Source: Maribacter luteus (GTDB taxonomy: Bacteria > Bacteroidota > Bacteroidia > Flavobacteriales > Flavobacteriaceae). From it: a stretch of DNA of 64,000 bases. The notes beneath the pieces were generated by a model. It was not told the DNA's origin and did no database searches. It was given only the letters and a program-made list of their open reading frames with translations. Both the position numbers and the translations under genes were made by a program. The stretch is from NCBI RefSeq assembly GCF_009674825.1, contig NZ_WKJH01000018.1, positions 62,001 through 126,000 of the forward strand, given 5' to 3'. This document shows positions 16,422 to 40,534 of this stretch, one piece after another (the stretch's first letter is position 1; each line of letters starts with the position of its first letter).

Positions 16422-17005
16422 CGAAATATATTTTAAAGTATTGACTTGAATAGCCGTGACATAAGCTGGCTATATGTTATTAAGATAATGTTCTTCAAAC
16501 TTATGTTTCAAAGGGATAATATCCATCCTGTTCTGTCCTGAAATTTTGAGTAATAAAAACAACTTAAATTCTGTTGTTTAAAGCAAATTACTAATCTTCT
16601 CTAAATTATGCGTTTTAACATTGCCCCTGACTTTAAACCTTAAATGATAGGGGAGAGGATATTGAAGTTTTAATTATTGGAAATAATTTTTTTTTCGGGT
16701 ATTTATTTAATCCAGTGATGTATAAAAAGCATTATCTTTTATGGTCGTTTATATTCAATAAGAGGAGAGAAGTTCTTAAATGGGATTATTATAATAATCA
16801 AAGCTCTTGTCAGTGATTGTATTGGTTTTTTTTTACCTTTATAGATGTCAAAAAGCCATATTCTGATTACCAGTTTCGGTGTTCAATACACATTCTTGCA
16901 AAATGATATCTGAAACTTGGTTAAATCATATTTAGTGACGATTTGATTGGTTTTTTCTTCTTTTTAATATTCTTGAATAAAAAAATTCCCGTAAACTAAA
17001 TTAAC
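16422..17005. other. Divergent intergenic region between the left operon and the plus-strand sulfatase
   Basis: This 584-bp AT-rich gap contains promoter A on the minus strand. On the plus side I see no CAGNA-type element upstream of the sulfatase at 17,006, only T-rich tracts and an imperfect T-rich repeat near 16,812 and 16,933. No open frame of note and no RNA gene were recognised. Confidence 0.7.
16496..16540 (-). promoter_or_regulatory. PUL promoter A: CAGNA-repeat element plus -7 box
   Basis: In the minus-strand direction, positions 16540-16525 read CAGGACAGAACAGGAT, three CAGNA-like 5-mers. A box TAAGTTTG follows at 16503-16496, matching the Bacteroidetes -7 consensus TAnnTTTG exactly. 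Exactly 21 bases separate element and box. The same arrangement occurs at the three other minus-strand PUL operons. It lies about 75 bp upstream of the sulfatase-GH78 start. Activator-site function is inferred. Confidence 0.65.
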
Positions 17006-18769
17006 ATGAAAAATTATTTCGTCTTGTTTAAGATTCTAACATTTTTTGCACTTAGCTGTTTGTTATTGGCAAGCTGCCAATCCAAAACCAAGGAAACAAA
17101 AAACTTTTCTTCGTCAGTTGCTACGAACGAGTTGCCCCAACGCCCTAATATTCTATGGTTGGTGACCGAAGATATGGGTGCTTATATTCCTTCTTTTGGT
17201 GATTCGACTATAGTAACACCGAATTTAAGTCGATTAGCAAAAGAAGGAGTCGTATATCCAAATTTATATTCTACCTCTGGGGTATGCGCTCCAAGTAGAG
17301 CGGCAATTGCTACGGGGATGTATCCTACGAGTATTGGGGCGAATGATATGAGAACTACTTCGAATACCAATGAAACAGGTTTGCCTGCATATGGCGCGGT
17401 TCCTCCACCCGAAGTGCGTATGGTCAGTGAATTGCTTCGGATGAACGGTTATTATTGTTCAAACAATTATAAAGAGGATTATCAATTTAAAGCCCCTAAA
17501 ACAGCATGGGATGAGAGTGGGCCATATGCCCATTGGCGCAATCGCGATAAGAATCAGCCTTTTTTCTCTGTATTCAATTTTACCGAAACGCATGAGTCGG
17601 GATTATTTGAACCTTATGGTTTCAGAAAAATAGAAACCAGGCATTACCATGAAGGGGATACAACCTATACATGGGGTCCAGGACGAATGACTGAAGAAGA
17701 AACACCCGTACACTTGCCAAAAGATACAGAGTTTAACATTCCCCCCTATTTACCCAATACGCCCGTGGTGCGCCGCGATATGTGGAAATTATACAATAAT
17801 ATTGCTGAGATGGATCGTCAAGTCGGGGCGGTATTGAAGCAGTTGGAGGAAGATGGTCTGTTGGATAACACCATTGTCTTTTTCTATGGAGATCATGGTG
17901 GTCCGTTGCCTAGAGAGAAACGCTTGATCTATGATTCAGGATTGAATACTCCCATGATCATTCGATTCCCTAATAAGGTCAATGCAGGGATTAAAGATGG
18001 TGAATTGATCAGTTTTGTCGATTTTGCCCCCACTCTTCTTTCTTTAGTGGGTATTGAGCCTCCCGCATATTTACAAGGACAAGCTTTTTTAGGTGTCGAT
18101 AAATCGAGTAAGGAACGCAAATATATTCATGCTGCCGCTGATCGGTTTGATGAGATTACCGACGTAATCAGGGCCGTGCGGGATGATCAATTTAAGTACA
18201 TTCGAAATTACAGACCTGATCAAGGTTATTATTTACCCGTTGGGTACAGGGAAAAAATACCTACAATGCAGGAATTATTGCGTTTACGTGATGAAGGAAA
18301 TTTGGACAGTATACAATCACTTTGGTTCAGGAATCGAAAAGACCCTGAAGAATTGTATGATTGCAAGTCCGACCCCCACGAAATACATAATTTGGCCAAG
18401 GATCCTGCCTTTAAAGGAAAATTGGAAGAATTGCGAACAGAAATGGATCGTTGGCTTAAAGAGATTGAGGATGAGCCCAATCTTCCGGAAAGGGGGTTGA
18501 TTGCCCAGTTGTGGAATGGCGCAGAAACGCAACCTGTAACTTCGAAACCTGAAATTGAAATAATTAATAATAAGATTTTGATTAACTGTGCTACTGAAGG
18601 TGCCTCATTGGGATATAAGATTATTGGTAAAGATGGGAATATACCTAAAGTTTGGACCGTCTATCAAGAACCTTTTGAAGCTCCAGAAGGTAGTAAATTA
18701 CTATCACAAGCCTATCGGATAGGGTTTATTCCTAGTAGTATTGTAGAGCATACTAATATTGGTAGTTAA
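17006..18769 (+). CDS. S1-type sulfatase lipoprotein
   Basis: A 587-residue sulfatase and the only plus-strand gene of the PUL. The signal peptide ends in LLASC (Cys 24). Motifs are LVTEDMGAYIPSFGD (with Glu-Asp where many sulfatases have Asp-Asp), the active-site CAPSR (Cys 94) and YGDHGGPLPREKR. The last about 80 residues, after the sulfatase core, form a small beta-type tail (ASLGYKIIGKDG...) resembling the chitobiase/hexosaminidase C-terminal fold. It is isolated between promoter A and the strong bidirectional terminator at 18,824 and has no copy of the shared PUL promoter element, so its expression may be controlled differently. The sulfate position it removes is not predictable here. 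Confidence 0.92.
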   Translation: MKNYFVLFKILTFFALSCLLLASCQSKTKETKNFSSSVATNELPQRPNILWLVTEDMGAYIPSFGDSTIVTPNLSRLAKEGVVYPNLYSTSGVCAPSRAAIATGMYPTSIGANDMRTTSNTNETGLPAYGAVPPPEVRMVSELLRMNGYYCSNNYKEDYQFKAPKTAWDESGPYAHWRNRDKNQPFFSVFNFTETHESGLFEPYGFRKIETRHYHEGDTTYTWGPGRMTEEETPVHLPKDTEFNIPPYLPNTPVVRRDMWKLYNNIAEMDRQVGAVLKQLEEDGLLDNTIVFFYGDHGGPLPREKRLIYDSGLNTPMIIRFPNKVNAGIKDGELISFVDFAPTLLSLVGIEPPAYLQGQAFLGVDKSSKERKYIHAAADRFDEITDVIRAVRDDQFKYIRNYRPDQGYYLPVGYREKIPTMQELLRLRDEGNLDSIQSLWFRNRKDPEELYDCKSDPHEIHNLAKDPAFKGKLEELRTEMDRWLKEIEDEPNLPERGLIAQLWNGAETQPVTSKPEIEIINNKILINCATEGASLGYKIIGKDGNIPKVWTVYQEPFEAPEGSKLLSQAYRIGFIPSSIVEHTNIGS

Positions 18770-18823
18770 TATAATGATCTACGTGATTTTCATTCACCTT
18801 ATATCAAATAATATTGAAAACTT

Positions 18824-18852
18824 AAAAACCCCGGTAAGTAGCCGGGGTTTTT
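18824..18852. terminator. Bidirectional intrinsic terminator between convergent genes
   Basis: A perfect 11-bp inverted repeat, AAAAACCCCGG (18824-18834) and CCGGGGTTTTT (18842-18852), with a 7-nt loop. T-tracts lie on the exit side in both directions. It sits between the convergent stops of the plus-strand sulfatase (18769) and the GH78 gene (18881). Confidence 0.93.
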
Positions 18853-18880
18853 ATTTACGGAAATTTATGATTTTTCAGGA

Positions 18881-21637
18881 TTATAGTTTATCTATCGGGT
18901 ATATGAACGAATACGTGCCCGAACCTAGTTCAACTTGAACACCTTTATCTGTTTGCTTAATCGTAAACTTTATGTTTCCCTTGGGCTTATTGCCGTTGGG
19001 TAAAACATGTTCAATAGTAGCTTTCGGTAGCGTAATTGTTGCGGTAGTGTTCGCGGGTATGATTACTTCATAATGGAATTTTCCTTCCTTAATTTCCCAA
19101 TCGGATTTTATCTTTCCATAAAGGGAGAAGAATTCAGCCTTTGCAGAAGTTAATCCACCTCCGGGATGTGGGTCAAATAATATATGCTTGTACCCAGGGT
19201 TTTCCGGATCTATCCTTAATCCGCCTACGTGTGTATAGAGCCATTCTCCAATTGCACCATATGAATAGTGATTAAAACTGTTCATGCCTTCAATAATGGT
19301 TCCATCTGGTTTTTGTGTGTCCCAACGTTCCCAAATGGTCGTGGCTCCCATGGTTATTGGGTAAAGCCAAGAAGGAAACTCCTTTCGGTTCAATAACATA
19401 AAGGCCAAGTCGTCTCGACCTATTTTTGAAAGCGTGCTGCAGAGTAGGGGGGTACCCAAAAATCCGGTAGTTAAATGTCCGAATTTTTTTACGTCTTGGG
19501 CGAAATACCCGGCAGACTTATCAATTAAGTTCTCGGGAATCAAATCAAATGAAAGTGCTAACGCATAGGCCGTTTGCGTATGGGAGACCAAACGGCCGTT
19601 TGGTGTAATATATTCTTGAATAAAGGCTTCCCTAATATTTTCTGCTAGCCTCCCATAGGTAACCATATCTTCATTCTCACCTATTATAGAAGCTATTTTA
19701 CTTAATAAGGTGGTGGAGTAATAGGCATAAGCCGTGGCGATCAAATCCTTCTCAGTAACCGATCCATTGTAATCGGGCTTATCTGCATTGTAAGCGAGCC
19801 AATCGCCCCAATGCCAATGTTTATAGTCGATCCATAGATAATCTTCTCCGGCACTTTTGGCCATAAAATCTACCCATTTTTTCATGCTGCTATACTGTTC
19901 TTCCAAAATACGTTTATCACCGTAAGATTGGTATACCGTCCAAGGAATGATTACTGCTGCATCTGCCCAACCTGTTGCACCACCTTTCGCAGCTGCACCT
20001 TTACTTGCGCTAAGTATATCTGGCACTACATTGGTAACCACCCCATCTTTATGTTGATCTAGGGCCAAATCTTTTAGCCACTTTGTATAAAATGCGGCTA
20101 CGTCGAAATTATAAGCAGCCGTCATACTGAAAACCTGGGCGTCACCTGTCCAACCTGCTCTTTCATCCCGTTGAGGGCAATCTGTAGGAATATCCAAAAA
20201 ATTATCTTTTTGTCCCCATTGGATATTACTCTGTAATTGATTGATCATTGGGTCGGAAGTTGTAAAACTTCCGGTAGGAGTGATTTCGGAATGAATGACC
20301 ACACCCGTTATATCATCTAGGTTTAAGGTACCAGGATAGTCGATTACTTGAATATAACGAAATCCGTGAAAGGTAAAATGAGGTTCAAATATTTCTTCGC
20401 CTTCACCTTTTAATGTGTAAATATCTGTCGCTTCGGCAGCTCTTAAGTTGGTTGTATAAAAATTGCCGTTTTTATCAAGGACTTCGGCAAATTTCAAGGT
20501 GACTTTGTGCCCTTTTGGACCTCTTACTTTCATACGCGCCCAACCGACTATATTTTGACCTAGGTCCAAAACGGTTTCTCCTTTGGGAGTAGAAATCAGT
20601 TTTTTGGGTTTAATTTCTTGAATGGCTTTTACTGGCGGACCTTGTGGTGCAACCAGAATATCTTTTGGATGGTCTAGGACTTCGACCTTATCCCAATTAT
20701 TATCATTGAACCCAATATTAGCCCAACCATCTAGCTCTAATCGAGCATCATATTTTTCACCGTTGTACATGTCTGACTCTAAGATGGGACCGTATGAAGC
20801 CTTCCAATCGCCGTTGCTAACGACAGTCTCGGTTGTGCCATCATTGTAAATTATGTTCAATTGAATAAATAGAGCAAGTTGTTTTCCATAAAAGGCATAG
20901 TCACCTTGCCATCCTATATTGCCACGATACCAACCATCACCGACTATTGCTCCGATCGCGTTGTTGCTTTTCAACATATTCGTAACATCATAAGTCTGGT
21001 ACTGCAATCTCTTATCATAACTGGTATAACCTGGCGTAAAAAGATCATCACCTACTTTTTCTCCGTTCAGGTAAATTTCATAGACACCTAAGGAGGTTAC
21101 TTGAACTTTGGCTGATTTTATCGATTTTTTGGCCTGAAACTCGGTTCTAAAATATTGTGAAGGGTGTGATTTTTTCTCAGTGGTTATATCGTCCATGGCA
21201 ATGTAAGAAGCAGACCATAATGATTTATCCAAGATGCCCATTTCCCAAAATGCAGGGGAACTCCATGAAGAAACTTTGTTCTTATTGTTCCATACCCTTA
21301 CCCGCCAGTACGCCCGTTGCATTGACTTTAATACAGGTCCGTTATAAACCACATTTACCGATTGATCACTTTCTACCCGGTTCGAAGACCAAATAAGGCT
21401 TTTCCCATTTACTAGATTTTCCTTGGAGTCCGCTACGTGAATTTCGTATGCCGTTTGCATAACATTTTGGCCATCTGAACTTATTTGCCAACTCAGTCGC
21501 GGTTTTTCCACATCAATGCCAATGGGATTGGTTCTGTATTCTGTAACCAGTTTTGTTATCTGATCTTTTTTAATGGTAAATGATGTTGTCAAGAGTAGAC
21601 CAAGGATTATAAAACCAACTTTAAGTGTATTCTGCAT
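18881..21637 (-). CDS. GH78 alpha-L-rhamnosidase, secreted
   Basis: A 918-residue enzyme with an N-terminal signal peptide (about 20 residues, no clear lipobox). Domain order is the GH78 norm: fibronectin-like N domain (PRLSWQISS, AYWRVRVWNN), the Bac_rhamnosid_N beta domain (YEIYLNGEKVGDD, GDGWYRG), the second beta domain ending HGFRYIQV, then the alpha/alpha barrel with IPTDCPQRDERAGWTGDA (general acid Glu 492) and TTIWERWD (base Glu), and a C-terminal beta domain. The reaction is hydrolysis of terminal alpha-L-rhamnose. It is the last gene of the GH5-GH3-GH78 operon, 21 bp after GH3, and ends at the strong terminator at 18,824. Confidence 0.95.
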   Translation of the reverse strand: MQNTLKVGFIILGLLLTTSFTIKKDQITKLVTEYRTNPIGIDVEKPRLSWQISSDGQNVMQTAYEIHVADSKENLVNGKSLIWSSNRVESDQSVNVVYNGPVLKSMQRAYWRVRVWNNKNKVSSWSSPAFWEMGILDKSLWSASYIAMDDITTEKKSHPSQYFRTEFQAKKSIKSAKVQVTSLGVYEIYLNGEKVGDDLFTPGYTSYDKRLQYQTYDVTNMLKSNNAIGAIVGDGWYRGNIGWQGDYAFYGKQLALFIQLNIIYNDGTTETVVSNGDWKASYGPILESDMYNGEKYDARLELDGWANIGFNDNNWDKVEVLDHPKDILVAPQGPPVKAIQEIKPKKLISTPKGETVLDLGQNIVGWARMKVRGPKGHKVTLKFAEVLDKNGNFYTTNLRAAEATDIYTLKGEGEEIFEPHFTFHGFRYIQVIDYPGTLNLDDITGVVIHSEITPTGSFTTSDPMINQLQSNIQWGQKDNFLDIPTDCPQRDERAGWTGDAQVFSMTAAYNFDVAAFYTKWLKDLALDQHKDGVVTNVVPDILSASKGAAAKGGATGWADAAVIIPWTVYQSYGDKRILEEQYSSMKKWVDFMAKSAGEDYLWIDYKHWHWGDWLAYNADKPDYNGSVTEKDLIATAYAYYSTTLLSKIASIIGENEDMVTYGRLAENIREAFIQEYITPNGRLVSHTQTAYALALSFDLIPENLIDKSAGYFAQDVKKFGHLTTGFLGTPLLCSTLSKIGRDDLAFMLLNRKEFPSWLYPITMGATTIWERWDTQKPDGTIIEGMNSFNHYSYGAIGEWLYTHVGGLRIDPENPGYKHILFDPHPGGGLTSAKAEFFSLYGKIKSDWEIKEGKFHYEVIIPANTTATITLPKATIEHVLPNGNKPKGNIKFTIKQTDKGVQVELGSGTYSFIYPIDKL

Positions 21638-21658
21638 AGTGTAAATGATTTTACTTTA

Positions 21659-23827
21659 TTAAAAAACCTTAAGTGTGGTTTGTTTAAGATCTTTAGTAGC
21701 TGATGATGATCCTACGGAAATCGTAAACGTACCGGGTTCAACGACTTTTTCCATTTCCTGGTTCAGAATGGAAAGCTCATCAAAACCTAATTGAAAGGAT
21801 ACGGTTTTAGTTTCCCCTGGTTCTAGATGGATGCGTTCAAACCCCTTTAGCATTTTAAGATACCTGCCCACTGAAGCAAAATCATCCCGAACATACATCT
21901 GTACCACTTCATCACCAGCTCTGGATCCCGTATTTTTAACTTCCACGGAAACAGTAGTTGAACCGTCCTTGGCAATCGTGGCATCTGCAAGTATTGGTTC
22001 ACTGTATTTAAAAGTAGTATAACTTAGGCCGTAACCAAAGGGAAACAGGGGAGACTTATCACTATACCTGTACTGCCCTTTGCCGGTCCCTATAAAATCG
22101 GGACGTTCCAAATAAGTGACAGGTAGTTGCCCAACTGAACGGGGGAAGGAAACGGTAAGTTTACCTCCTGGATTTACATCGCCAAAAATAGCATCTGCGA
22201 TTGCGTCACCTGAACGCATTCCCAAATACCAAGTCTCAAGAATTGAAGGTACATTTTCGGCAATATAGTTAATGGTTAGTGGTCGCCCGTTGATGAGTAC
22301 AACAATTACTGGTTTTCCTGTTTTATGTATTGCTTCTACAAGTTCGTTTTGTACGCCATAAAGGTTTAAATCGGAGCGATCAGCACCTTCACCACCTGTA
22401 CTTCGGGATCCACCGACTACTAAAACAACGGCATCCGAATTTTTTGCCGCGGCAATTGCTGCCGGAAAGCCTGCTTTGGAGGTATCCAATAAATCACAAC
22501 CTTTGGCGTAATTGATTTTTACATTATTGTTCACCTTGTTTTTTATACCATCTAAAACAGATACATAATATGGCGGTAAACCGGAGTACCCGCCCAAGAG
22601 TGAGTAAGAACCTTTTTCAGGTCTTTCTTCGGTGGCATTGGGACCGATAACTGCCAAGGATTTGATTTTCGTCATATCCAACGGTAAGAGGTCGTTATCA
22701 TTTTTTAATAGGATAATTGCCTTTTTGGCCATTTCATAAGCATAATCCTGATGTTCTTTTGTACCGGCATTAACAGTTTCAGTATCAATCTCTTTAGGTT
22801 CAGTATCAAATAAGCCCAATTTATATTTTGCAGTTAAAATACGAGATGTTGCAATGTCTATGTACTTCATCAATTCAGGATCCTGTGTTATCGTATCCTT
22901 CAATACATTGGTGTGATACGATGCGAGGTCAACATTCTTTCCAATGACTAAGTCCATGTCAACACCAGCTTTTAGTCCTAAGATAGCTGACTTGGCTCTC
23001 GTTTCCGAAATAAAATGCATGGTCCCTAACCTTGCAATATCATTATTATCAGAAACTATAAAACCGTCGAAACCTAGCTCATCTCGTAAAATATCCTTTA
23101 GTAACCAAGTATTCATATGGTTTGGAACTCCATTATAATCTTGATGGCCTGGCATAACTGAACCTACCTTTGCTATCTTAACTGCAGCCTCAAAGGGTGG
23201 TAGATAAACCTCTCGCAATCGACGTTCGGACATATCACTAAAACCACCATTGATGCCGCGACGGTTTTCCGGATATCCTATAAAATGCTTAGCCGTTGCA
23301 ATAACATGATTCTCATCAAACTGCTCATCACCTGTACCTTGTAGACCCTCGATAAACGCAACACCCATTTTCGAAACCAAATAAGGATCTTCGCCATAAG
23401 ATTCTTCGACCCTACCATACCTTGGATCACCAGAAATTACGTCTAAATTAGGTGAATAACAATGGGTAACACCTAAAGTACGCGCTTCTATTGCTGTTTG
23501 TGAAGCCATTTTTTTAATTAACTCGGGTTCCCAAGTTGAGCCACAAGCAATAGCTTGAGGATAAACAGTTGTATTACCATAATAATCAAGAACAAGCCAT
23601 AATCCATGTAGGGCTTCTCCATATTTCATATACGGAATACCTAAACGATGGTTGGCAGGCGCATCTTGGGTCATTTCCGCTATTTTTTCCTCAAAGGTCA
23701 TTTGACTTACTAGATGTTCTACTTTTTTATTGATATCGCGGTCCTCTTTACTTTTATAGGTTTTGTTTTCAGTTTTGCAACCGACAATGAACATTATGTA
23801 CAATACTATGGAAATCGTTTTTTTCAT
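21659..23827 (-). CDS. GH3 beta-glycosidase lipoprotein (candidate beta-xylosidase or beta-glucosidase)
   Basis: A 722-residue lipoprotein (FIVGC, Cys 17). It has the complete GH3 layout: N-terminal barrel with YGEALHG, SPNLDV, GRVEESYGEDPYL and the nucleophile loop FDGFIVSDNNDIA (Asp 260), then the alpha/beta sandwich with VVGGSRSTGGEGADRSDL, and a C-terminal fibronectin type III-like domain (GDEVVQMYVRD). GH3 enzymes remove terminal beta-linked glucose, xylose or related sugars. In an ulvan-type PUL a beta-xylosidase would fit the xylose-rhamnose repeats, but that is inference. It lies 16 bp downstream of GH5 and 21 bp upstream of GH78. Confidence 0.93.
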   Translation of the reverse strand: MKKTISIVLYIMFIVGCKTENKTYKSKEDRDINKKVEHLVSQMTFEEKIAEMTQDAPANHRLGIPYMKYGEALHGLWLVLDYYGNTTVYPQAIACGSTWEPELIKKMASQTAIEARTLGVTHCYSPNLDVISGDPRYGRVEESYGEDPYLVSKMGVAFIEGLQGTGDEQFDENHVIATAKHFIGYPENRRGINGGFSDMSERRLREVYLPPFEAAVKIAKVGSVMPGHQDYNGVPNHMNTWLLKDILRDELGFDGFIVSDNNDIARLGTMHFISETRAKSAILGLKAGVDMDLVIGKNVDLASYHTNVLKDTITQDPELMKYIDIATSRILTAKYKLGLFDTEPKEIDTETVNAGTKEHQDYAYEMAKKAIILLKNDNDLLPLDMTKIKSLAVIGPNATEERPEKGSYSLLGGYSGLPPYYVSVLDGIKNKVNNNVKINYAKGCDLLDTSKAGFPAAIAAAKNSDAVVLVVGGSRSTGGEGADRSDLNLYGVQNELVEAIHKTGKPVIVVLINGRPLTINYIAENVPSILETWYLGMRSGDAIADAIFGDVNPGGKLTVSFPRSVGQLPVTYLERPDFIGTGKGQYRYSDKSPLFPFGYGLSYTTFKYSEPILADATIAKDGSTTVSVEVKNTGSRAGDEVVQMYVRDDFASVGRYLKMLKGFERIHLEPGETKTVSFQLGFDELSILNQEMEKVVEPGTFTISVGSSSATKDLKQTTLKVF

Positions 23828-23843
23828 TTTAATTGGCTTTTAT

Positions 23844-25250
23844 TTATTCTTTAGATGTTTCAAAATTCCTGATGCCGGGAACGATTCTTATCTTTAATCG
23901 GTTTCTACCTTCCGGCCATTTTAATATGATTAATTTTTGGCTGCTATCATCCCAAATGTAATTATGGGGGTCAACATCCTTGGGAACTTTATAAACTTCC
24001 AAATCTATATTTTTCAATGGGTTGTGGTAGAGGTAGATATCATCGTCGATTAGTACTGAAAATCCGTCGGGATAATGTCTATTGGCTCCTATGAATATCT
24101 TAGAAGCCCCTTTTTCGTTATCGGGTTTTATGTTTAGGTCCAAACTTCGCGTGGCATGGTGGTACATAAATGATTGTATGTCCCCGGCAATGGTTTGGGG
24201 ATAAGGTCTTGCGATAATATCGGTAATATATTTTCTTTCGACCGTTCCTACGGCCTTTTTGTCACTGAAAATCGCCCAAGTTGAAGGTCCTCCGGGAAGA
24301 AAATTCTGCATAGTTCTATTCCCTAAAAACCATGCCTTGATACTGCCAACTCCCATTTGATCAAATACTTCTGCAGTTCGGATATAAAGTTCCCTGTATT
24401 TGAGTTGGCCAAAATTACCTGAGATCAAGGTGTCTGTAGTGGCAAAAGTGGGAAATCCCCATTCCCCGATAAGAATAGGTGCATTGAGCATTTGTGATTC
24501 TTGGTCAAAGCGATCCATCACAGGTTTGATAAAATCAATTTTATTTTGATAGATATGTGGGGCGAATATAATATTCTCCCGGTTAATGGGCGCGGTGATT
24601 TCCGCATATTGATTATTGTCGATACCTTCTCCTTTGTTCATGAATATGGATTGTAAAAGAATCTTTTTATCGGCATTTATCTTTTGACTTTCGTCGATAA
24701 TCCTTTGGTAAAGGGGAATCAGATATTTTTTTGTGAGGCGGTCGTAAGAAATATCCATCGTTAGCTTCCTAGGTTCATTGACAATGTCATATCCCAAGAC
24801 TGATGGGTCGTCTGTGTACCTGTTCCAGATTACCTTCCAAGCTTCTATATAGGTTTGGTACTCGTTGTTCTTGTTCAACCAAAACTCTTCCCAAATAAAT
24901 TTATCTACCCCATAAACGGTCATTTTAAAAACTGTTTTCATACCGGAATTTTTGCCTAGGTTGACCAAAGTATCAAGTTTCATCAAATAATCCTGTTCTA
25001 ATCTGCCACCTGGGAAAATGCTTAACTTTCCTAGTTCCAATCGTATGACTTGTGTATTGGCTCCCATACGAACCATTCTGGTATAATCGTCAGAGTTGAA
25101 AAATATCTCACCTTTATGGTCATTGGTGTTGACCACGAAACCTCTTGGTATGATGTGGCGCCCAGCTTCATCGCGAAGGCCGTGTTTAATCTGTGTAAAT
25201 GCCATAAAGGCATTGAATAAAGATACAAAGAGAACAATTCTAAATTTCAT
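23844..25250 (-). CDS. GH5-like endo-glycosidase, secreted
   Basis: A 468-residue protein with a signal peptide (cleavage near residue 19). The barrel has the GH5 landmarks: GYDIVNEP (acid/base Glu 159), FAPHIYQN (His/Tyr before strand 7) and ILIGEWGFP (nucleophile Glu 263). The last about 120 residues form a beta-rich C-terminal domain, as in endoglycoceramidase-like GH5 members. Substrate is unknown. GH5 is not one of the usual ulvan families, so this enzyme may act on a beta-linked backbone or side chain specific to this organism's target. It is the first gene of the operon driven by promoter D. Confidence 0.85.
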   Translation of the reverse strand: MKFRIVLFVSLFNAFMAFTQIKHGLRDEAGRHIIPRGFVVNTNDHKGEIFFNSDDYTRMVRMGANTQVIRLELGKLSIFPGGRLEQDYLMKLDTLVNLGKNSGMKTVFKMTVYGVDKFIWEEFWLNKNNEYQTYIEAWKVIWNRYTDDPSVLGYDIVNEPRKLTMDISYDRLTKKYLIPLYQRIIDESQKINADKKILLQSIFMNKGEGIDNNQYAEITAPINRENIIFAPHIYQNKIDFIKPVMDRFDQESQMLNAPILIGEWGFPTFATTDTLISGNFGQLKYRELYIRTAEVFDQMGVGSIKAWFLGNRTMQNFLPGGPSTWAIFSDKKAVGTVERKYITDIIARPYPQTIAGDIQSFMYHHATRSLDLNIKPDNEKGASKIFIGANRHYPDGFSVLIDDDIYLYHNPLKNIDLEVYKVPKDVDPHNYIWDDSSQKLIILKWPEGRNRLKIRIVPGIRNFETSKE

Positions 25251-25273
25251 AATGAGTAATCAGATATGAGTAG

Positions 25274-25318
25274 GCAATATATTATTTGGTTCGCGAATAT
25301 CTATCCCGCACTGTGCTG
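25274..25318 (-). promoter_or_regulatory. PUL promoter D: CAGNA-repeat element plus -7-like box
   Basis: The minus strand reads CAGCACAGTGCGGGAT at 25318-25303 and TATATTGC at 25281-25274. The spacing of 21 bases is identical to promoters A, B and C. The box is a looser match to TAnnTTTG. The segment GGATAGATATT after the repeats resembles GGATGGATATT in promoter A. The start codon of the GH5 gene is about 24 bp downstream of the box. Confidence 0.55.
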
Positions 25319-25465
25319 ACTTTATCTATTATTAAGAACTTCAAGTGCATGGTAATGAAATCTTCTCGGTAATTTTTCTTTTTCAGATAGGGCTGATATA
25401 TTTATCGGAGTTATCGAATATGGAAAAAGAACGTAAATAAGAAATCGGAATATCTGTTATGTAAT

Positions 25466-25499
25466 AAAATGGGGCAAAAGATTTCTTTTGCCCCATTTT
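25466..25499 (-). terminator. Intrinsic terminator downstream of SusD
   Basis: A perfect 15-bp inverted repeat, AAAATGGGGCAAAAG (25466-25480) and its complement (25485-25499), around a 4-nt loop. It lies about 70 bp after the SusD stop. The arms supply T-rich ends in both directions. Confidence 0.9.
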
Positions 25500-25570
25500 C
25501 CAAACTAACTCAAACAACTCAAAATTAAATTACCCATAAGATTGTGCTTTGTGCAATATTATTTTTCATC

Positions 25571-27148: not shown

Positions 27149-27165
27149 ATCTGATTTTTTATTTT

Positions 27166-30235: not shown

Positions 30236-30280
30236 TGAATATACTTTGTGAATCTTTTAACACTATCCTGTCCTATCCTG
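30236..30280 (-). promoter_or_regulatory. PUL promoter B: CAGNA-repeat element plus -7-like box (susC)
   Basis: The minus strand reads CAGGATAGGACAGGAT at 30280-30265. It belongs to a perfect 10-bp tandem duplication (GGACAGGATA twice, 30264-30283). The box TATATTCA lies at 30243-30236, again exactly 21 bases away. The susC ATG is at 30207, giving a leader of roughly 25 bases. The element resembles those of promoters A, C and D. Confidence 0.6.
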
Positions 30281-30904
30281 TCCTTTTTTGTGTCAATTGA
30301 CAAAAAAAACCTGATTTGCTTAATGTTTATAGGGGTTGGCAAATGATATTAAAATCACAAAAAAATAACTATTAAATTGTTTTTATATCAATTATATGGT
30401 TAAAAAATACAATATACAACAAATGGAGATTTGATTTATTTTAGGTTATGAGAGTTGTTTTTAATAAGGAAATGATATCCAATACATCCTCAAATTGGAA
30501 AGAATTTTTTATAATAAATAGATGTGATTTATAAAAATCGATCTCTAATCATTTCGTGGTAAGACTGAAGAGTCGGCACTATGTTGGCCCGTATTGCAAT
30601 TATGAATGTTCTAATCTATTCTGATAAAATAATTAAGATTTCTATTGGTACAAATAGAAAAAGTATTGATTTGTTCAACAATTCATTACTTCTTTGATTA
30701 AATGCAAAAAAGTAGATTGAAAGGCAGTAATTGGTAGGTGTAAATTGTGAGGTAATGCTGTTGTGACTCGTTTATAGTCCCTCTTGTTTATTTTTAATAT
30801 TTACAGCTTAATTGCCTTTAGTAAAAACAGGTTTATATATTCCGATCAAGGGGTTGTTTATATGTTTCGTAATCCTGTTAAATGAATGTTCAGGGGGTGC
30901 TCTC

Positions 30905-32535: not shown

Positions 32536-32994
32536 CTCCCTATTTAGGATTTCGGTTGTTTACTTTATTATTATATGGTGTTGAAAAAGTCATTATTTAC
32601 TTCAGCATGGTTATTTGGTGATCTAGATTGATCTTATGGGTTTTCATCTGTATTAACATAGATGACTTTTAATTGATTCACTAAAAAAGTTCCTAATCAA
32701 TTTCAATACACCATATAGTTGTATTTACTGCTATTATGTATTTTCATTCGTTCAACGGCTTGCAACACTTCTTTTTTCAGAACTTGACTGTTATGGCTTA
32801 CCAAATAGATTGTATTCATAGCTTGGGTCTGGGCAAATTTCCGATTTGTTCTTTTTGCACCATTCTTCTCTTGATAGAGCTCCTATCCAGTCGGTGATAC
32901 CATGTATGGCCGTAAATTGCCCAGTCATTAATATAATAGTTGTTTGGCCATTTTAAAGGTCATCTTACTTTGACGATTGTTAATAAGGTTATGC
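32536..32994. other. Intergenic region with decayed coding remnants
   Basis: This 459-bp gap separates the GH2 gene from the downstream sulfatase. Its upstream part (32703-32961) carries two minus-strand protein-like fragments in different frames, described separately. Its downstream part (32536-32700) is AT-rich with no recognised motif. Confidence 0.6.
32703..32961 (-). pseudogene. Remnant of a frameshifted gene, family not recognised
   Basis: On the minus strand, 32961-32816 encodes a fragment with YYINDWAIYGHTWYHRLD and then stops. In an overlapping second frame, 32861-32703 encodes KRTNRKFAQTQAMNTIYLVS and then KKEVLQAVERMK, ending in a stop after YNYMVY. Both pieces have normal protein composition but no start, and together are far shorter than any PUL enzyme. 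I read them as the 3' end of a former gene broken by frameshift and deletion between the GH2 and sulfatase genes. I cannot name the family. Chance open frames remain possible. Confidence 0.4.
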
Positions 32995-35469
32995 TCATTG
33001 TTTTACGGTCAATGCATTTAATTCAACCGTTTTTGGCGTAAGCCCCTCCGAATAGGCTTCGACCTTAATGTTTCCTTCTTCTAACTTACTTTGTAGTATC
33101 AGTAAACATTTGCCATTGAATACCTTTCGTTCATTAATCTTGGTTGAAGCCAAGTCCAACGGATCTCCATTGTCAACACCGATATTCTCAGCCGGCCCGG
33201 TTATCTTAAAATGAATTAAATTGTTTGCATTGGGTACAAGATTGCCATCTTTATCGATTATGTTGACTTCTAAGTGTATACAACTTTCGCCGTCGGCGTT
33301 CATAGTTTCCTTATCTGCCAGAATTTGAATTTTAGCCGGTTTTGAAGCTGTATTTACAATTTTTTCACTTACTACTTTGCCGTCTGTTCTGGCAATCGCC
33401 TTTATTGTTCCTGCCTCGTAAGGTACATTCCAAGAGAGATTCATTTGCCCTTCATTACGCTTTGTACCGAACGATTCACCATTAAGGAAAAGCTCTACTT
33501 CTTCGGCATTGGAATATGTCCATACAGGGATAACTTTCCCTTCCTTTCCTGGCCATGTCCAATGTGGCAAAATATGTACCATCGGTTCATTCGTCCACTG
33601 GCTTTTGTAGAAATAATAATGGTCTTTTGGGAAACCACATAGATCAATGATTCCGAAATTGTGAAAACGGGCCGGCCAACCATTTATGGCTTCACCTAAA
33701 TAATCATAACCTGTCCATCTAAATTCCCCTGCTACATAGTCTATACTATCTGTTCTTCTCCAAGAATCCCGGGCACTTATTCGAACACTTGAATTATCAT
33801 AAGAGGAGTTATAAAAATTTGAGAATTCAGGAAAAACCTCTTCCTGTGTTAAATCCGGTACTGCAATACCTTGCTTAGGTGACCTCATCACCGTTTTGGT
33901 TTTATATACCCCTCTGGTTTGAAACGAATGGGGAATCTCCGTAGCAATGAACTTTCTATTAGGATAAGTTATTTTGTCCTTTTCATAAAAAACGGACCCA
34001 CCACCACCGTTGTAACCTGTAACATCGAGCATGGAAGCGAAACCGGAGTCGTTGGCCAAATGTATGAAGCAACAGCCTGCGGTCACAGGTCTTGTATTAT
34101 CCAATTTATGAACGGTTTTCATTAATGGCTTTAACCGTTTTGGTCCCTCGGGGTAACATTGATCTGGAATTTCATTACCGACACTCCACATAATAATACT
34201 TGGGTGGTTTCTGTCGCGAAGTATAATATCCTTTAAATCTTGTTGTGCCCATTGTTCAAAATGTTCATGATAACCATGCTTTACCTTACCTTCATTTTTA
34301 TAATCAACCCATGGCCAGGAGGCAATCCATTCATCAAAAACCTCATCCATTACCAAAAAGCCCATTTCATCACAAAGTTTGTAAAACTCTGGAGCAAATG
34401 GGTTATGTGCCGTACGGATGGCATTACACCCCATATCTTTCAGGATCTTAAGTCTACGGTGAAGTACATCTTCGGGTACGGCCGCGCCGACCGGTCCTGC
34501 GTCATGATGGTTGTTAACGCCTTTAATTTTGATGTTTTTTCCGTTTAACCAGAAACCGGTTTCAACTTCAAACTTAATATCCCTGATACCAAATTTGGTT
34601 TTATAGGTGTCAAGTACAATATTGTCTTTTGTGATCTTGGTCATTAAAGTATATTGAATCGGTGATTCCGTTGACCATAAATCTGGGTTCTTAACATCAA
34701 TTTTTTGATTTATTATCTTTTGGGCGTTTTTCAGTACATATTGATCTACCGTGCTTTCCGATACCTTTTCTCCCTTAGGATTGTATATTTCATTAATGAT
34801 TTGAACCTTTTCATCTGTTGGTAATGTATTGTCTAAAGTGGTTTCTATATGTATTTCTGCGGAATCATCGGTAATATTACGGGCTATAATGTATGTACCG
34901 TTTTCGGCAACTGCAATTTTGTTTTTCACATTCAACCAGATATTACGGTAAATTCCACAGCCTGTATACCAACGGCTATTCGGTTGAGCAGAATTATCTG
35001 CGCGTACGGTTAATTCATTGTTCCTTTCATTTAAATATGGGGTTAGGTCATAAGTGAAACCAACATACCCATTAGGACGTTTCCCTAGTGATTTGCCATT
35101 GATCCATACTTCACTATTACTCATTACCCCATCGAAAGTTATCAAAACCCGTTTGTTTTTCCATGTTTTTTCAAAAGCAAAGTTTTTTCTGTAATAACCT
35201 ATGCCACCGGGATAAAATCCACCTTGGGGTCCAGAAGGGTTATCTCGATTGATTTCCCCTTCAATACTCCAATCATGTGGAATTTTAACCTTGTCCCAAC
35301 TAGAATCATCGAAATCAGGTTGTGAGGCCGATTTTTCATCGATCAGCTTAAAACTCCAATCGGTATTGAATTTTATATTACGCAAGGAAATGAATTCCTT
35401 TTCGTTATGTGTATTACAATTGGTGAATAGTGTGATCGTTAATATGAACCAGATAAATTTTTTCCCCAT
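32995..35469 (-). CDS. GH2 beta-glycosidase lipoprotein (beta-galactosidase/beta-glucuronidase family)
   Basis: An 824-residue lipoprotein (FTNC, Cys 18). Domain order: sugar-binding N domain (FNTDWSFKLID, WDKVKIPHDWS, RRNF-like strand), immunoglobulin-like domain, TIM barrel with RTAHNPFAPEFYKLCDEMG, the acid/base loop IIMWSVGNE (Glu 433) and the nucleophile strand FIATEIPHSF (Glu 511), then DUF4982- and invasin-like C-terminal beta domains (ADGESCIHLEVNIIDKDGN). GH2 enzymes remove beta-linked galactose, glucuronate or mannose. Here a beta-glucuronidase or galactosidase role is equally possible. Its start lies directly against the stop of the upstream GH78 gene, so the two are co-transcribed. 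Confidence 0.95.
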   Translation of the reverse strand: MGKKFIWFILTITLFTNCNTHNEKEFISLRNIKFNTDWSFKLIDEKSASQPDFDDSSWDKVKIPHDWSIEGEINRDNPSGPQGGFYPGGIGYYRKNFAFEKTWKNKRVLITFDGVMSNSEVWINGKSLGKRPNGYVGFTYDLTPYLNERNNELTVRADNSAQPNSRWYTGCGIYRNIWLNVKNKIAVAENGTYIIARNITDDSAEIHIETTLDNTLPTDEKVQIINEIYNPKGEKVSESTVDQYVLKNAQKIINQKIDVKNPDLWSTESPIQYTLMTKITKDNIVLDTYKTKFGIRDIKFEVETGFWLNGKNIKIKGVNNHHDAGPVGAAVPEDVLHRRLKILKDMGCNAIRTAHNPFAPEFYKLCDEMGFLVMDEVFDEWIASWPWVDYKNEGKVKHGYHEHFEQWAQQDLKDIILRDRNHPSIIMWSVGNEIPDQCYPEGPKRLKPLMKTVHKLDNTRPVTAGCCFIHLANDSGFASMLDVTGYNGGGGSVFYEKDKITYPNRKFIATEIPHSFQTRGVYKTKTVMRSPKQGIAVPDLTQEEVFPEFSNFYNSSYDNSSVRISARDSWRRTDSIDYVAGEFRWTGYDYLGEAINGWPARFHNFGIIDLCGFPKDHYYFYKSQWTNEPMVHILPHWTWPGKEGKVIPVWTYSNAEEVELFLNGESFGTKRNEGQMNLSWNVPYEAGTIKAIARTDGKVVSEKIVNTASKPAKIQILADKETMNADGESCIHLEVNIIDKDGNLVPNANNLIHFKITGPAENIGVDNGDPLDLASTKINERKVFNGKCLLILQSKLEEGNIKVEAYSEGLTPKTVELNALTVKQ

Positions 35470-38265
35470 TTAATTTAAATTTGATTTAAAACTGTAGGTT
35501 CCGGGTCGCACCAAAACTTCAAAAGAACCTTCTTGCGAATCCATCATTCTTATGTTCTGATAGTCTTTAATGTTACCACCATTGACTTTTATTTCTTTTT
35601 CTGTATTCCCAGGAATATTGATTATTGCCGTGGTATTTGGAGGAACGGTAACATTCAAATAAAATGAACCATTTTCTTTTTTCCATGCAGAACTTATTTT
35701 TCCATAAGGGGAGTGGTAGCTAGCTTCAGCCGATGTAAGAGGTCCTCCTGGAATTGGGGCAATTCTAATGCTTTTATAGCCAGGTTCCAAAGGAGCTATT
35801 CCTGCAATTCTTTCATACATCCATTGGCCTATGGCACCATAAGCATAATGATTCAGGCTATTCATACTTTGCGGGTTGTAACCTTCTTCCTTATTATAGC
35901 TATTCCAGCGTTCCCACATGGTGGTCGCTCCTTGATTGATAGAATAAAACCAAGACGGATAGGTTTCTTTGAACAAAATTTTATACATTAAATCAATCTC
36001 ACCCATATCATCCAAAACCTTGGGTAAAATTGGTGTTCCTAAAAACCCTGTTCCTAAATGATAATCCGCCTTCTTAATTTCTTCAAGCAAATGGTTTTGC
36101 GCTTTTATTTTGGATTCTGGTTTAAATAAATCGAAATATATACCTAGTAAATAACTTGTTTGAGTTTGCTTGTCTTGTTTAAACCTAGCGTTTTCGTCAA
36201 AAAATTCATTTTCAAAAGCGTTAGCAACAGCTTTATACAAATTTTTATACTCTTTTTCGTCATCCGTTTTACCTAAAACACCTGCAATTTTAGATATTAA
36301 ATGCGCCGAATGCGCAAAATAAGCGGTATTAATTAATTCCTTTGGTGTATCACCTCTATTTCCCTTTTTTAAACTTTTAGAAGGATAAGGTTGCAACCAA
36401 TCTCCAAAAGAATGCATTATCGGTATATAGGGTTTCTTTTTAACTTTAGATTCATAGTATCCAACCCATTTTTTTGCAGATTCATAACTATCTTCAAGTA
36501 CCGTAACATCTCCCGTAATATTATAAATATCCCATGGAATAATAACACAGGCATCACCCCAACCTGAACTGGCATTATTATTTTGAAGCACATCAGGAAC
36601 AATGAATGGTATTAAACCATTTTCATGTTCGGATTGGGTTTCGCGCATACTTTGTAGCCATGCTGTCCAGAAAGCATGTGTATTATAATTGAACATAGCG
36701 GTAGGCGAAATAACTTGTGCATCTCCTGTCCATCCCAAACGTTCGTCGCGTTGTGGGCAATCTGTGGGGACATCAAAAAAGTTGTCACGCAAACCCCAAG
36801 TAATATTGCTTTGGAGTTGATTTAATTTTTTATGTGATGATGTAAACGTTCCATTTACCTTGAAATTTGAATGTTGCACAAGGCCCTGTACCCAATCTGA
36901 GCTTGGTTTGGCATTTTGGTCAAATCCCCTTAATTCTACAAATTGAAATCCGTGGAAGGTAAACTTTGGTGTATATTCTGCAATACCGTCTTTAGCAGCG
37001 ATATAATAATCGGTTGATCGTGCAGAACGATAATTGGTAGTGTAAAAAGTACCATCTGAAAGTAACATTTCAGAAAAACGGATTTTCAGGGTGTCCCCTT
37101 TTTTCATCGGGACCTTTAACTTGGGCACCCCTACCATGTTCTGCCCTAAATTGAAAATTGCCGAGTTATTGTCTACTGATACAATAGTCACATCATCTAT
37201 GATCGTTTTTTGTTTTACCGTATTATGGCGTTTAGGTTCTAATTTGACGGAGTCCATGATAGCTTCGGTTTCAACACTTTTCCAATCTTTGTCGTTAAAA
37301 GAGGTCTTTGTCCAATCCGGCATTTCAAGATTAGCGTCATATACTTCACCATCATAGATGCCGGCCAATCGGATGGGGCCGTTGGCCGTACCTTTCCAAC
37401 TTTTATCGGAGACTATGATTTTCTTTGAGCCATCTATTGATTCTAGCTCTAATTGACATAAAATTTTAGGCGAAGCCAAATTATCATAAAGAGCCTTTCC
37501 TCTGCTGATTCTCCCAGAGTGCCAACCAGAAGCTAATTCTACGGCTAAGGTATTCTGACCTGATTCTATTAAATCGGTAACATCATAGGTGATGGTCTCA
37601 ATGCGTTTGTCATAGGGGGTCCATCCCGGTGGTATAACGTCATTACTCACATCGTTGCCATTTAAATGAACATCAAAAACACCTTTTGCCGTAATGTACA
37701 ATCTGGCTGAGGTGATATCAGTAGTTAATTCAAATACCTTTCGCAAATATTGAGGTCTATGCATTAAAAATTCCCGTACCCCTTTGATGCTGTCTTTTGC
37801 AGTATTGATTCCTATCCAGTGGGCTTTCCAATCATTATTCTTTAAAAGTCCCAATTCAAAATTTGCTATCTCGCTCCATTCCGATGGTTGTTCTTGGGAA
37901 TCCCAATACTTAACCTGCCAGTATACTTTCTGTCTTGAAACCAAATTTGGACCTTCATATTTAATGAATATGGAATGGTCAGATATTATTTTTCCGCTTT
38001 TCCATACATCAGGATTGTTTGGTAAAAGGTCGGGGGAACTTGCAGCAACAATGGAATAGGCAGTTTGTGATTTTATGTTTTCTGGAAGCTTCCAAGAAAA
38101 AGTCGGAGTAGCATCATAAAACCCTTTTGGGTTTTCAAAACCCTCACTGACCGTTAATTCAAATGGGGACAAGTTTTTATTTTCCTGCTTACAAGAAAAA
38201 ATGCCTAAACATAAAAGTAGTAATAAGTGCTTTTTTGTAAAGTAAAGAAAAGAAACCTGTTTCAT
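35470..38265 (-). CDS. GH78 alpha-L-rhamnosidase lipoprotein
   Basis: A 931-residue GH78 enzyme with a lipoprotein signal (IFSC, Cys 25). It has the same domain order as the enzyme at 18,881 but is clearly a different paralogue: N-terminal fibronectin-like domain (PTFSWKLPE, VYWQVKYWDS), beta domains (FDVHLNGNDV, ELASGWHSGR, HGFQFVELRG), barrel with VPTDCPQRDERLGWTGDA (general acid Glu 508) and TTMWERWN (base), and a C-terminal beta domain. It removes terminal alpha-L-rhamnose. The presence of three GH78 modules in one PUL suggests rhamnose in several linkage or sulfation contexts. It lies 24 bp after the 639-residue gene. Confidence 0.95.
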   Translation of the reverse strand: MKQVSFLYFTKKHLLLLLCLGIFSCKQENKNLSPFELTVSEGFENPKGFYDATPTFSWKLPENIKSQTAYSIVAASSPDLLPNNPDVWKSGKIISDHSIFIKYEGPNLVSRQKVYWQVKYWDSQEQPSEWSEIANFELGLLKNNDWKAHWIGINTAKDSIKGVREFLMHRPQYLRKVFELTTDITSARLYITAKGVFDVHLNGNDVSNDVIPPGWTPYDKRIETITYDVTDLIESGQNTLAVELASGWHSGRISRGKALYDNLASPKILCQLELESIDGSKKIIVSDKSWKGTANGPIRLAGIYDGEVYDANLEMPDWTKTSFNDKDWKSVETEAIMDSVKLEPKRHNTVKQKTIIDDVTIVSVDNNSAIFNLGQNMVGVPKLKVPMKKGDTLKIRFSEMLLSDGTFYTTNYRSARSTDYYIAAKDGIAEYTPKFTFHGFQFVELRGFDQNAKPSSDWVQGLVQHSNFKVNGTFTSSHKKLNQLQSNITWGLRDNFFDVPTDCPQRDERLGWTGDAQVISPTAMFNYNTHAFWTAWLQSMRETQSEHENGLIPFIVPDVLQNNNASSGWGDACVIIPWDIYNITGDVTVLEDSYESAKKWVGYYESKVKKKPYIPIMHSFGDWLQPYPSKSLKKGNRGDTPKELINTAYFAHSAHLISKIAGVLGKTDDEKEYKNLYKAVANAFENEFFDENARFKQDKQTQTSYLLGIYFDLFKPESKIKAQNHLLEEIKKADYHLGTGFLGTPILPKVLDDMGEIDLMYKILFKETYPSWFYSINQGATTMWERWNSYNKEEGYNPQSMNSLNHYAYGAIGQWMYERIAGIAPLEPGYKSIRIAPIPGGPLTSAEASYHSPYGKISSAWKKENGSFYLNVTVPPNTTAIINIPGNTEKEIKVNGGNIKDYQNIRMMDSQEGSFEVLVRPGTYSFKSNLN

Positions 38266-38289
38266 TTGTCTGGATTTAGAAATAAATTT

Positions 38290-40209
38290 CTAGGATACTT
38301 CTATCGTAATGGATACTGTATTTTCATTATTTTCAAAAAACGCCATAATCGGAATTGCTTCTGCCCCTGGTACCATATTAAAGATTCGTTCCTTCGGGAT
38401 TTCACTGATTTTTAGGGGTACACTTGAAGTTATCCTAACCAAACCTTTTGGTTTTTGTACGGTTATCTCTTTTGGGTTTACCTGTGTTACGGCCTCTCCA
38501 GTGGGTGAAATAATCGGCAAAACAAAAGCGGTCTCCGAGGTGATTTTTTGGTTGGTGTTTGCCAAAATCTGCAAAGCGCTTTCGGAACAATGATAGGTTA
38601 AACTGAATTCAGAAGCAGTTTCTTCAACAGCTTCATTTTCATCATTTTTCAATTGACATTGGGCATCTATACGGATTTTTCCATCTGTATCCACTGAAGA
38701 AATATTGGCAGCACGGTCAAAAATGTTGGAATACCATTTGTCTTTATGTACTGTTTCTACCCTTGGGGTAAAGGGGAAATCTTCCCCTGGGTTAGGTTGT
38801 TGGTTCAACGATTCAACCAATTCATACTTGGCCATACTTGCAGCCAATAAAAGTCCTACTTTATTATGGTATAAAAGAGATATGGCCCCACCTGTTGCTT
38901 GACGATAATGACCATCTTTATAAATTGCATCATAAGCCGTTACGGTTCCTCTCCAATCGCCACGAGCAAACAGACTGGTGTCTATTTCCTTATAGTGTTT
39001 TATTCCATCAGCGGTGCTTCTAGGTAGGGGTACAGTAGTGTCTATTTTGGGCAGATTATCCCAATTGTCTAACAAATGTGCCAATGGTTTGGTATGGGCA
39101 AAAGTATGGTGTATACAGGGTTTAATCCAATGTGAAACATAGTGTATACCCCCATGTAATAAGCCGTTGTTCGTACATCTTTTCAGTAATTCCGTATATT
39201 TTACCGCTGCCGTACCCAATGCCGGATTACGGTTGGCCATCAAGACCAAAGCCGGTTGACTGCCATCACATGTACGGCTGCCCCAATAGGTCCATTTAAA
39301 CATTCGTGTTCCCCAACCGTTGTCCCAACCCCCGTCAGGTAACATAAATTCTAAATGGGTGCTCAATGATTTGTCTAAAAGATCAAGGAGTTCTGTGTCG
39401 TTCTCATGAACTGCATATAGCACAATATTGTTTAAAGATTCTTCCACATTATAGCCTAAGTCCACTCCAGGTAATCCTTTAGCACTTAACTTATGTGCAC
39501 TGGGTTTTATCTCGCCGTATAAAAAATTGTTGGGTGCCGTAAAGTATGTTTTTATTGATTCGGCCAGTTCTTTGCTGCGAGTCAGATATTCAGGTTTGTT
39601 GAGTATTTTACCAATAAGGTTTAGGGCATAAATGGTAGTTGCCCCGTAATTCACATTGGTCACATCCATTGTTGGGAATTTCTTATAAATAAAATCAGCG
39701 GCTCGGGCCAATCTGTCTGTCCAGTTTTTTCGACGCTGGTCATCCAAAAGGTCACCGTGATAATGTAAAGCTTCCGCCAATGAAATAGCTCCAAAAACAG
39801 TAATGCCGTTCCAAGATTTTGGGTTAAGGTCATTGGACCATGCGCCACTGGGCAAGGTCACGTTTTGTGCCCATTCCATTACTGCTATTCCAGAATCTAG
39901 ATATTTTTGTTCTCCCGTGTATTTTGCCATAGCAAGGAGAGGATAAACGGCATCCATCATTCGTCCATGAACCTTATTACATGCCGGACATTTGAACATA
40001 CCATGGATTTTAGGGTCTTCAGTATCCATGATTTGGGTTTTTATCAGTCCATCGCACCAATTTTTCAATAAATCATAGGTCAACTTTTTGAATTCAGAGG
40101 AATGTTCTTTACTTGGTGTTTCGGTACAGGAAGAAAGCCATGCCCCCAAAGGGAGTGTTAGGCCTATTCCTGCCAATGTAGATCTTTGTATAAAATCTTT
40201 ACGATTCAT
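38290..40209 (-). CDS. Uncharacterised secreted alpha-toroid plus beta-sandwich protein, Tat-like lipoprotein leader
   Basis: A 639-residue protein. The leader MNRKDFIQRSTLAGIGLTLP resembles a Tat signal but has Arg-Lys in place of the twin Arg, and a possible lipobox LSSC (Cys 28) follows. Residues of about 40-400 are helical repeats of alpha/alpha-toroid type (MMDAVYPLLAMAKYTGEQKY, WNGITVFGAISLAEALHYH) with a CPAC pair (Cys 74 and 77) that could bind a metal. Residues of about 410-639 are beta-rich. The architecture resembles polysaccharide lyases, uronyl dehydratases and GH88/105/154-like enzymes, but I see no diagnostic motif of a named family. It is first in the operon with GH78 and GH2, driven by promoter C. 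A new lyase, dehydratase or glycosidase of this PUL is the most useful hypothesis. Confidence 0.65.
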   Translation of the reverse strand: MNRKDFIQRSTLAGIGLTLPLGAWLSSCTETPSKEHSSEFKKLTYDLLKNWCDGLIKTQIMDTEDPKIHGMFKCPACNKVHGRMMDAVYPLLAMAKYTGEQKYLDSGIAVMEWAQNVTLPSGAWSNDLNPKSWNGITVFGAISLAEALHYHGDLLDDQRRKNWTDRLARAADFIYKKFPTMDVTNVNYGATTIYALNLIGKILNKPEYLTRSKELAESIKTYFTAPNNFLYGEIKPSAHKLSAKGLPGVDLGYNVEESLNNIVLYAVHENDTELLDLLDKSLSTHLEFMLPDGGWDNGWGTRMFKWTYWGSRTCDGSQPALVLMANRNPALGTAAVKYTELLKRCTNNGLLHGGIHYVSHWIKPCIHHTFAHTKPLAHLLDNWDNLPKIDTTVPLPRSTADGIKHYKEIDTSLFARGDWRGTVTAYDAIYKDGHYRQATGGAISLLYHNKVGLLLAASMAKYELVESLNQQPNPGEDFPFTPRVETVHKDKWYSNIFDRAANISSVDTDGKIRIDAQCQLKNDENEAVEETASEFSLTYHCSESALQILANTNQKITSETAFVLPIISPTGEAVTQVNPKEITVQKPKGLVRITSSVPLKISEIPKERIFNMVPGAEAIPIMAFFENNENTVSITIEVS

Positions 40210-40489
40210 TTATTGTGTTATTAGTTGCAGTGCAATTTGTTATTTTAGAAGCGAATGGGACTACATAGTTTTAGAGTGGCATTGGTTTATATATAATTAA
40301 GAAACTTATTGAAATCAAACTAAAAGGTTTTTTTGTGGGCCGATAAATGACTTTATTATCCTTAAAATAGTATAAACTTTAAAAATGGTTTCTATCATAA
40401 AAATGGATAATCTTTCATTTTCAAGAGTTTTTTGGGAAAACAGTAAATAAGTTAGTTTTTCCTATTTAAATATTGAACTGAACCCATTA

Positions 40490-40534
40490 CAATTATAAGT
40501 GGGATTTTAGTATTTAGCATCCTGTACTGTACTG
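40490..40534 (-). promoter_or_regulatory. PUL promoter C: CAGNA-repeat element plus -7-like box
   Basis: The minus strand reads CAGTACAGTACAGGAT at 40534-40519 and TATAATTG at 40497-40490, with 21 bases between, as in promoters A, B and D. The downstream gene starts at 40209, so the predicted leader is about 275 bases, much longer than at susC or GH5. Confidence 0.6.

Follow-up and report, generated by a model that had tools for sequence, protein, structure and literature searches.

An 18-bp element at fixed distance from the -7 box in Maribacter luteus and its relatives points to a rhamnose/ulvan regulon of a GntR/LacI-type regulator

The pairing of a GntR domain with a LacI-type domain defines, in the excerpted account of the family, the AraR subfamily, with AraR of Bacillus subtilis as the arabinose repressor of Firmicutes acting on sugar and polysaccharide genes (PMC4494728). 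Equally, the flavobacterium Zobellia galactanivorans possesses with AusR, considered here from its description in a review, a GntR-family repressor of the alginate system. Regulators of rhamnose use have, according to the excerpts of the respective study, been described as of AraC, DeoR or LacI type, whereby the sites of the DeoR-type proteins are direct repeats with a period of 10-11 bp (PMC3870299). RhaR of Bacteroides thetaiotaomicron (BT3768) is summarized as an AraC-family regulator of rhamnose catabolism with a direct-repeat site of 21-bp period and a single target operon, while PULs can be controlled by HTCS, which are membrane AraC-type regulators recognizing direct-repeat sites of two boxes about 21 bp apart. 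A GntR-type rhamnose/ulvan regulon with the site reported below has not been found in print in the open-licence literature.

In a 64,000-nucleotide stretch of the 4.65 Mb Maribacter luteus genome (the window, part of contig C14), an initial annotation had singled out four 16-mers on the minus strand, each separated by exactly 21 bases from a -7 box starting with TA, and all four pairs were found at these positions when re-read. Element 1, CAGGACAGAACAGGAT (16525..16540), is followed by the box TAAGTTTG (16496..16503). Element 2, CAGCACAGTGCGGGAT (25303..25318), the weakest of the four with two mismatches to the family form, is followed by TATATTGC (25274..25281), a box that resembles the TAnnTTGY promoter class SM5 of F. 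psychrophilum as given in the excerpted source (PMC9723704). Element 3, CAGGATAGGACAGGAT (30265..30280), is embedded in a longer tandem run, with GGACAGGATA occurring twice in tandem and then a G (30263-30283, minus strand), and is followed by TATATTCA (30236..30243), and element 4, CAGTACAGTACAGGAT (40519..40534), is followed by TATAATTG (40490..40497). The pattern CAGNANAGNNCNGGAT-N21-TA matches four times in the window versus 0.01 times expected from 100 shuffles. A matrix built from 58 sites, all of other genomes, recognizes exactly the same four elements (scores of 38.4 for element 4, 35.7 for element 1, 29.2 for element 3 and 21.9 for element 2), with no other position of the 64-kb window scoring above 5 and a best score of 12.3 in 30 random windows generated by a first-order Markov model. 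On such comparative evidence the element is considered to be functional.

Behind promoter 1, a minus-strand gene run (1382..16421) begins with a sulfatase-GH78 fusion and continues with genes for a DUF5060 protein, a 508-aa protein with a GH115_C match, an 835-aa protein, a GH106 enzyme and two sulfatases, which common orientation and short gaps suggest to be one operon. Promoter 2 precedes GH5-GH3-GH78 genes (18881..25250, minus strand), and promoter 3 a susC-susD pair (25571..30207, minus strand) with the ATG of susC at 30207; an alternative longer TTG open reading frame of susC would overlap the promoter. Promoter 4 is followed on the minus strand (31021..40209) by genes for a 639-aa protein, GH78 and GH2 and then by a sulfatase gene, which is preceded by a 459-base gap and presumably belongs to the same operon. 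The 639-aa protein (38290-40209, minus strand) has no Pfam match, and the sole match of the 835-aa protein (6902-9409, minus strand) is heparinase II/III-like and below the cut-off. Both proteins sit inside the regulon outlined below; they are candidates for new ulvan-degrading functions.

Beyond the window, the first pattern located two further sites on contig C29, both with a gap of exactly 21 bases, that flank a GntR-type regulator gene (about 171151-172134 of C29) and point outwards. One of them faces a susC-susD pair and the other a rhamnose operon, which starts with rhaEW, the gene for rhamnulose-phosphate aldolase/dehydrogenase, and further encodes a rhamnose isomerase-like protein, an FGGY kinase, an aldolase and an aldehyde dehydrogenase. 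A relaxed pattern, which is partly circular since it was composed after inspection of sites, gave 12 matches in the genome versus 0 in the reversed control, and every match lies in front of ulvan enzyme genes, susCD, the rhamnose or a uronate operon or a probable transporter gene: the four window operons, GH78 and PL28 ulvan lyase genes in opposite directions, a sulfatase gene, two copies of uxuB-uxuA-kduI, susCD, rhaEW and the gene of a 469-aa protein that weakly matches a transporter. A stricter pattern with 2 mismatches allowed yielded 17 genome matches versus 5 in the reversed control, of which 10 are among the 12 and seven look like chance, six of these being intragenic. Both copies of the uronate operon (G000 C8:107587-108414 and C14:2095-2922) carry the element, their UxuB proteins being 93% identical, and the copy on C14 adjoins a gene for a 1365-aa HTCS-like protein. 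The 469-aa protein (L018:12570-13979), whose weak match is to NCS1 transporters, has relatives of 83-88% identity in three other loci (L084, L114, L135) and is perhaps a rhamnose transporter. Sulfated rhamnose and uronic acids are the main constituents of ulvan, so that the target list reads as one ulvan regulon. The initial placement of the element before PUL operons stands for the four window PULs but is too narrow, with rhamnose and uronate operons equally preceded by it; as judged from these targets, the element appears to belong to a rhamnose/ulvan regulon and not to PULs alone.

The regulator gene between the two C29 sites has its probable start codon, a TTG, 21 codons ahead of the ATG. 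Its product combines an N-terminal GntR winged helix (PF00392, E=1e-9) with a C-terminal LacI/GalR-type sensor domain (PF13377 Peripla_BP_3, E=1e-7, above the cut-off). A profile of 24 regulator sequences matches the DNA-binding domain of AraR (4egy, E=3e-11), with a weak PDB match for the C-terminal part (2qu7, E=2e-4). The ligand would be rhamnose. The predicted recognition helix does not closely track the site, with G020 retaining SRDTVEKAY despite a drifted site, and was dropped as evidence.

Presence of the element and of a close regulator, defined as an orthologue of at least 47% identity, coincides tightly. The family sample comprised 149 genomes, of which 27 contain the element accompanied by a nearby TA and 28 a close regulator; both occur in 25 genomes, the element only in 2 (G077, and G064 with a 45% homologue), the regulator only in 3 (G001, G049 and G100, which have near-matches before rhaEW, that of G100 being weak) and 119 genomes lack both (p about 7e-23 by Fisher's test). 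Counting one orthologue per genome, no more than 600 bp separate the regulator gene from an element in 18 of the 28 genomes, and the distance to any found element is larger in 10 (864 kb in G071). Several genomes hold 2-4 close paralogues, which renders the acting copy ambiguous. In a wider scan of 395 genomes of the class, none of the 16 matches examined out of 19 outside the family has TA at +21; in five of these loci (L179, L181, L182, L188, L189), GH78, susC or the GntR regulator is matched nearby by tblastn, which leaves room for divergent versions of the element there.

Taken from co-occurrence and gene position, the element is very probably the binding site of the GntR/LacI-type regulator. 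Binding by another regulator of AraC, DeoR or HTCS type, with the GntR gene as a mere neighbour, would accord with the families of the described rhamnose regulators and the repeat period of DeoR-type sites mentioned above, as well as with the 10 genomic matches to Y_Y_Y, a domain characteristic of HTCS; the tight co-occurrence with the GntR orthologue, the location of its gene between two sites and the lack of a second conserved box of the kind described for HTCS sites speak against such a regulator, which is considered very unlikely. In detail, neither the spacer nor the 30 bases before the element showed a second conserved box in 66 aligned sites (defined below), and no HTCS was found tied to the element. 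A reading of the repeat as an HTCS site, for which the 21-bp two-box form is missing, was rejected; a site of the Bacteroides AraC-type RhaR does not agree with the GntR type of the regulator beside the rhamnose operon and with a site period of 5/10 bp.

Upstream regions were also chosen by gene, presence of the element not being a selection criterion. Occurring in 33 of the 149 family genomes, rhaEW was scanned in 32 (G002 left out) over at most 320 upstream bases, and the element with a box at +21 was found in 26 of the 27 genomes with a close regulator (scores 16-41), using a matrix that contains the +21 box and had 12 of the 26 found sites, and not the other 14, in its training set. The exception, G127, has no site within 320 bp of rhaEW. 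Of five genomes whose regulator is more distant, three (G020, G064 and G108) show drifted sites (scores of 0.0, 16.8 and 6.3, respectively) at unchanged spacing, and G024 and G037 show none within 320 bp; in G127, G024 and G037, another gene may precede rhaEW in the operon. For uxuB, scores above 15 were obtained upstream of the gene in 7 of 13 loci (6 of 12 genomes), against a background maximum of 5.1 in 20 stretches of 3 kb. In one of the seven, G045, the uxuB-facing site has a gap of about 20 bases and a second site faces the divergent gene.

A pattern without any requirement for a -7 box gave 71 matches in the family genomes. Of these, 66 are retained, five from genomes without a close regulator (G032, G104, G124, G126, G077) being left out and G064, with its 45% homologue only, being kept. 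TA begins at exactly +21 in 63 of the 66 sites, with about 11% expected per offset, and the remaining three have TA at 22, TA at 20 and no TA, respectively; including the five left-out sites, of which only that of G077 conforms, the count is 64 of 71. Alignment on the element alone brings out TAnnTTtG at the +21 place, with TAnnTT present there in 47 of the 66 sites, while on the opposite side of the element no single offset shows TAnnTT in more than 4 of 66. The distance from element to first long open reading frame ranges from 4 to 1070 bases (median 85), and the element therefore follows the promoter and not the gene. The earlier proposal of one regulator-specific element with fixed geometry to the -7 box, made from four promoters, is supported.

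Class II activators bind near position -41. In F. johnsoniae, the excerpted promoter study (PMC6847099) locates the -7 T at position -12; counted from there, the 18-bp element would extend from about -49 to -32 with its centre at -40.5, and so is at the position of a class II activator if this -12 reference applies. That the spacing is constant, and on one side only, speaks for a contact with polymerase. On the other hand, the original argument from a -7 box without a -33 element is weak and was dropped, because 52 promoter-like places of the examined loci show no TTTG/TTG peak for a general -33 box; equally, a -33 motif is, in the same excerpts, hardly visible in F. johnsoniae promoters generally (PMC6847099). 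This same weakness of the -33 box, by which a missing -33 is no proof of activator dependence, would be compatible with the regulator binding the same site as a repressor, placed on the upstream part of the promoter, and leaving it when rhamnose is present, as might be expected from AraR and AusR, both described as repressors, and from a protein at -49 to -32 that could block polymerase. For a repressor, however, there would be no need of the exact one-sided spacing that 63 of 66 promoters show, and the related element at paralogues (see below) is located at varied distance from -7-like boxes, so that repression appears less likely. A role of the regulator as rhamnose-responsive activator of the regulon is, on this sequence-based reasoning, the likely one. 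The initial annotation had left the choice between an activator and a special sigma factor, of which the fixed geometry suggests the activator. Fixed spacing of two boxes is also what a promoter class of an alternative sigma factor would display, but the -7 box is the primary-sigma TAnnTTtG and the 18-bp upstream box exceeds the length that a sigma region would read, which makes a sigma factor highly improbable. A reading as ECF sigma promoter was rejected in the same way, the -10 box not being non-primary.

The conserved element comprises 18 bp, CAGNAYAGNACAGGATRS, which corrects the 16 bp of the first description. Three tandem CAGNA 5-mers had been read from it, and this repeat reading is retained as one of two that score alike: at 29 rhaEW-promoter sites, a direct repeat reaches 0.67 for 5 bp and 0.68 for 10 bp, and a palindrome around position 7 reaches 0.67, the imperfect palindrome CAGTAC-A-GTACAG being equally good. 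A palindrome with GT...AC half-sites is what the AraR-like subfamily would lead one to expect. The promoter-proximal ACAGGA core is the most constant part in the rhaEW promoters.

The first or next genes behind the 66 sites were tallied by ourselves, many by BLAST to M. luteus genes and the rest partly by Pfam. As first gene, rhaEW and susC were counted at 13 sites each and RhaT, a transporter-like gene and an FGGY kinase gene once each; other targets are susCD pairs led by ECF sigma or FecR genes and genes for GH78, GH106, GH88, GH28, GH43, GH31, sulfatases, esterases, and ulvan lyase or like enzymes. A confinement to PUL promoters, as had been anticipated, does not hold literally, with rhaEW and the uronate operons among the targets. 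Many unrelated genes, which would have spoken against the element, were not seen: 3 of the 66 sites precede unrelated or unclear genes (L086, L122, L141), one an O-antigen ligase gene with a gap of 22 bases and two unclear genes. In three genomes (L111, L125, L142), an ECF sigma gene stands between the element and susC, which suggests that control by the element feeds an ECF cascade there.

Paralogues of the regulator with 35-40% identity are associated with a related element, the 10-bp direct repeat CTRGTAGGKWCTRGTAG, which is present in 19 of 20 loci (L198-L217) if up to 2 mismatches are allowed and which in 18 of them is intergenic and directly precedes the gene of the paralogue itself; the consensus is derived from the same loci, with a shuffled mean of 0-0.2 per locus. 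A galactokinase gene adjoins CTRGTAGGKWCTRGTAG in L200, L206, L212 and L213, the four loci in which it was sought. A first k-mer, CATAATTATG, was located at the galactokinase gene and was discarded for the intergenic repeat. The paralogue repeat supports the assignment of the regulator and suggests repeat-reading to be common to the clade. Tentatively, and with somewhat less than even confidence, it might be generalized that the clade reads one-turn head-to-tail direct repeats and not palindromes, that its rhamnose branch has turned into a class II activator and that PULs are induced from within the cytoplasm by a released monosaccharide, over both the rhamnose and the uronate pathway, and not solely by envelope systems of HTCS or ECF/anti-sigma type.

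In the mechanism proposed, a one-component GntR/LacI-type factor would sense L-rhamnose or an early breakdown product, then occupy the 18-bp site, located at about -49 to -32, and recruit the primary RNA polymerase to the TAnnTTTG -7 box in the style of a class II activator. A single site per promoter would link ulvan enzymes, susCD, rhamnose and uronate catabolism and a probable transporter in one regulon, tying polymer cutting to sugar catabolism. For about a fifth of the sampled family genomes, the use of rhamnose-rich algal polysaccharides could thereby be assigned to a regulator with its site and its targets, proteins that belong to no known family, among them the 639-aa protein, might by their membership in the regulon be marked as likely contributors to ulvan breakdown, and the prediction is testable with one protein and one promoter.

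Compared with known systems, the putative regulator shares with AraR the GntR winged helix, the LacI/GalR-type sensor and the control of sugar and polysaccharide genes, but differs from this Firmicutes arabinose repressor by lineage, by rhamnose/ulvan target genes, by a repeated element and by an activator-like geometry (PMC4494728). A rhamnose catabolic regulon is common to BT3768, which, as summarized, differs in protein family, site period and number of target operons, and rhamnose genes together with direct-repeat sites of similar period are common to the DeoR-type RhaR, from which the protein family differs. With HTCS, as far as described, the system has PUL control and direct-repeat sites in common, and not the membrane AraC-type regulator with its two-box site. 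AusR, in its review description, is equally a GntR-family regulator for an algal polysaccharide in a flavobacterium, but serves the alginate system as a repressor, unlike the rhamnose-responsive activator which is considered probable here.
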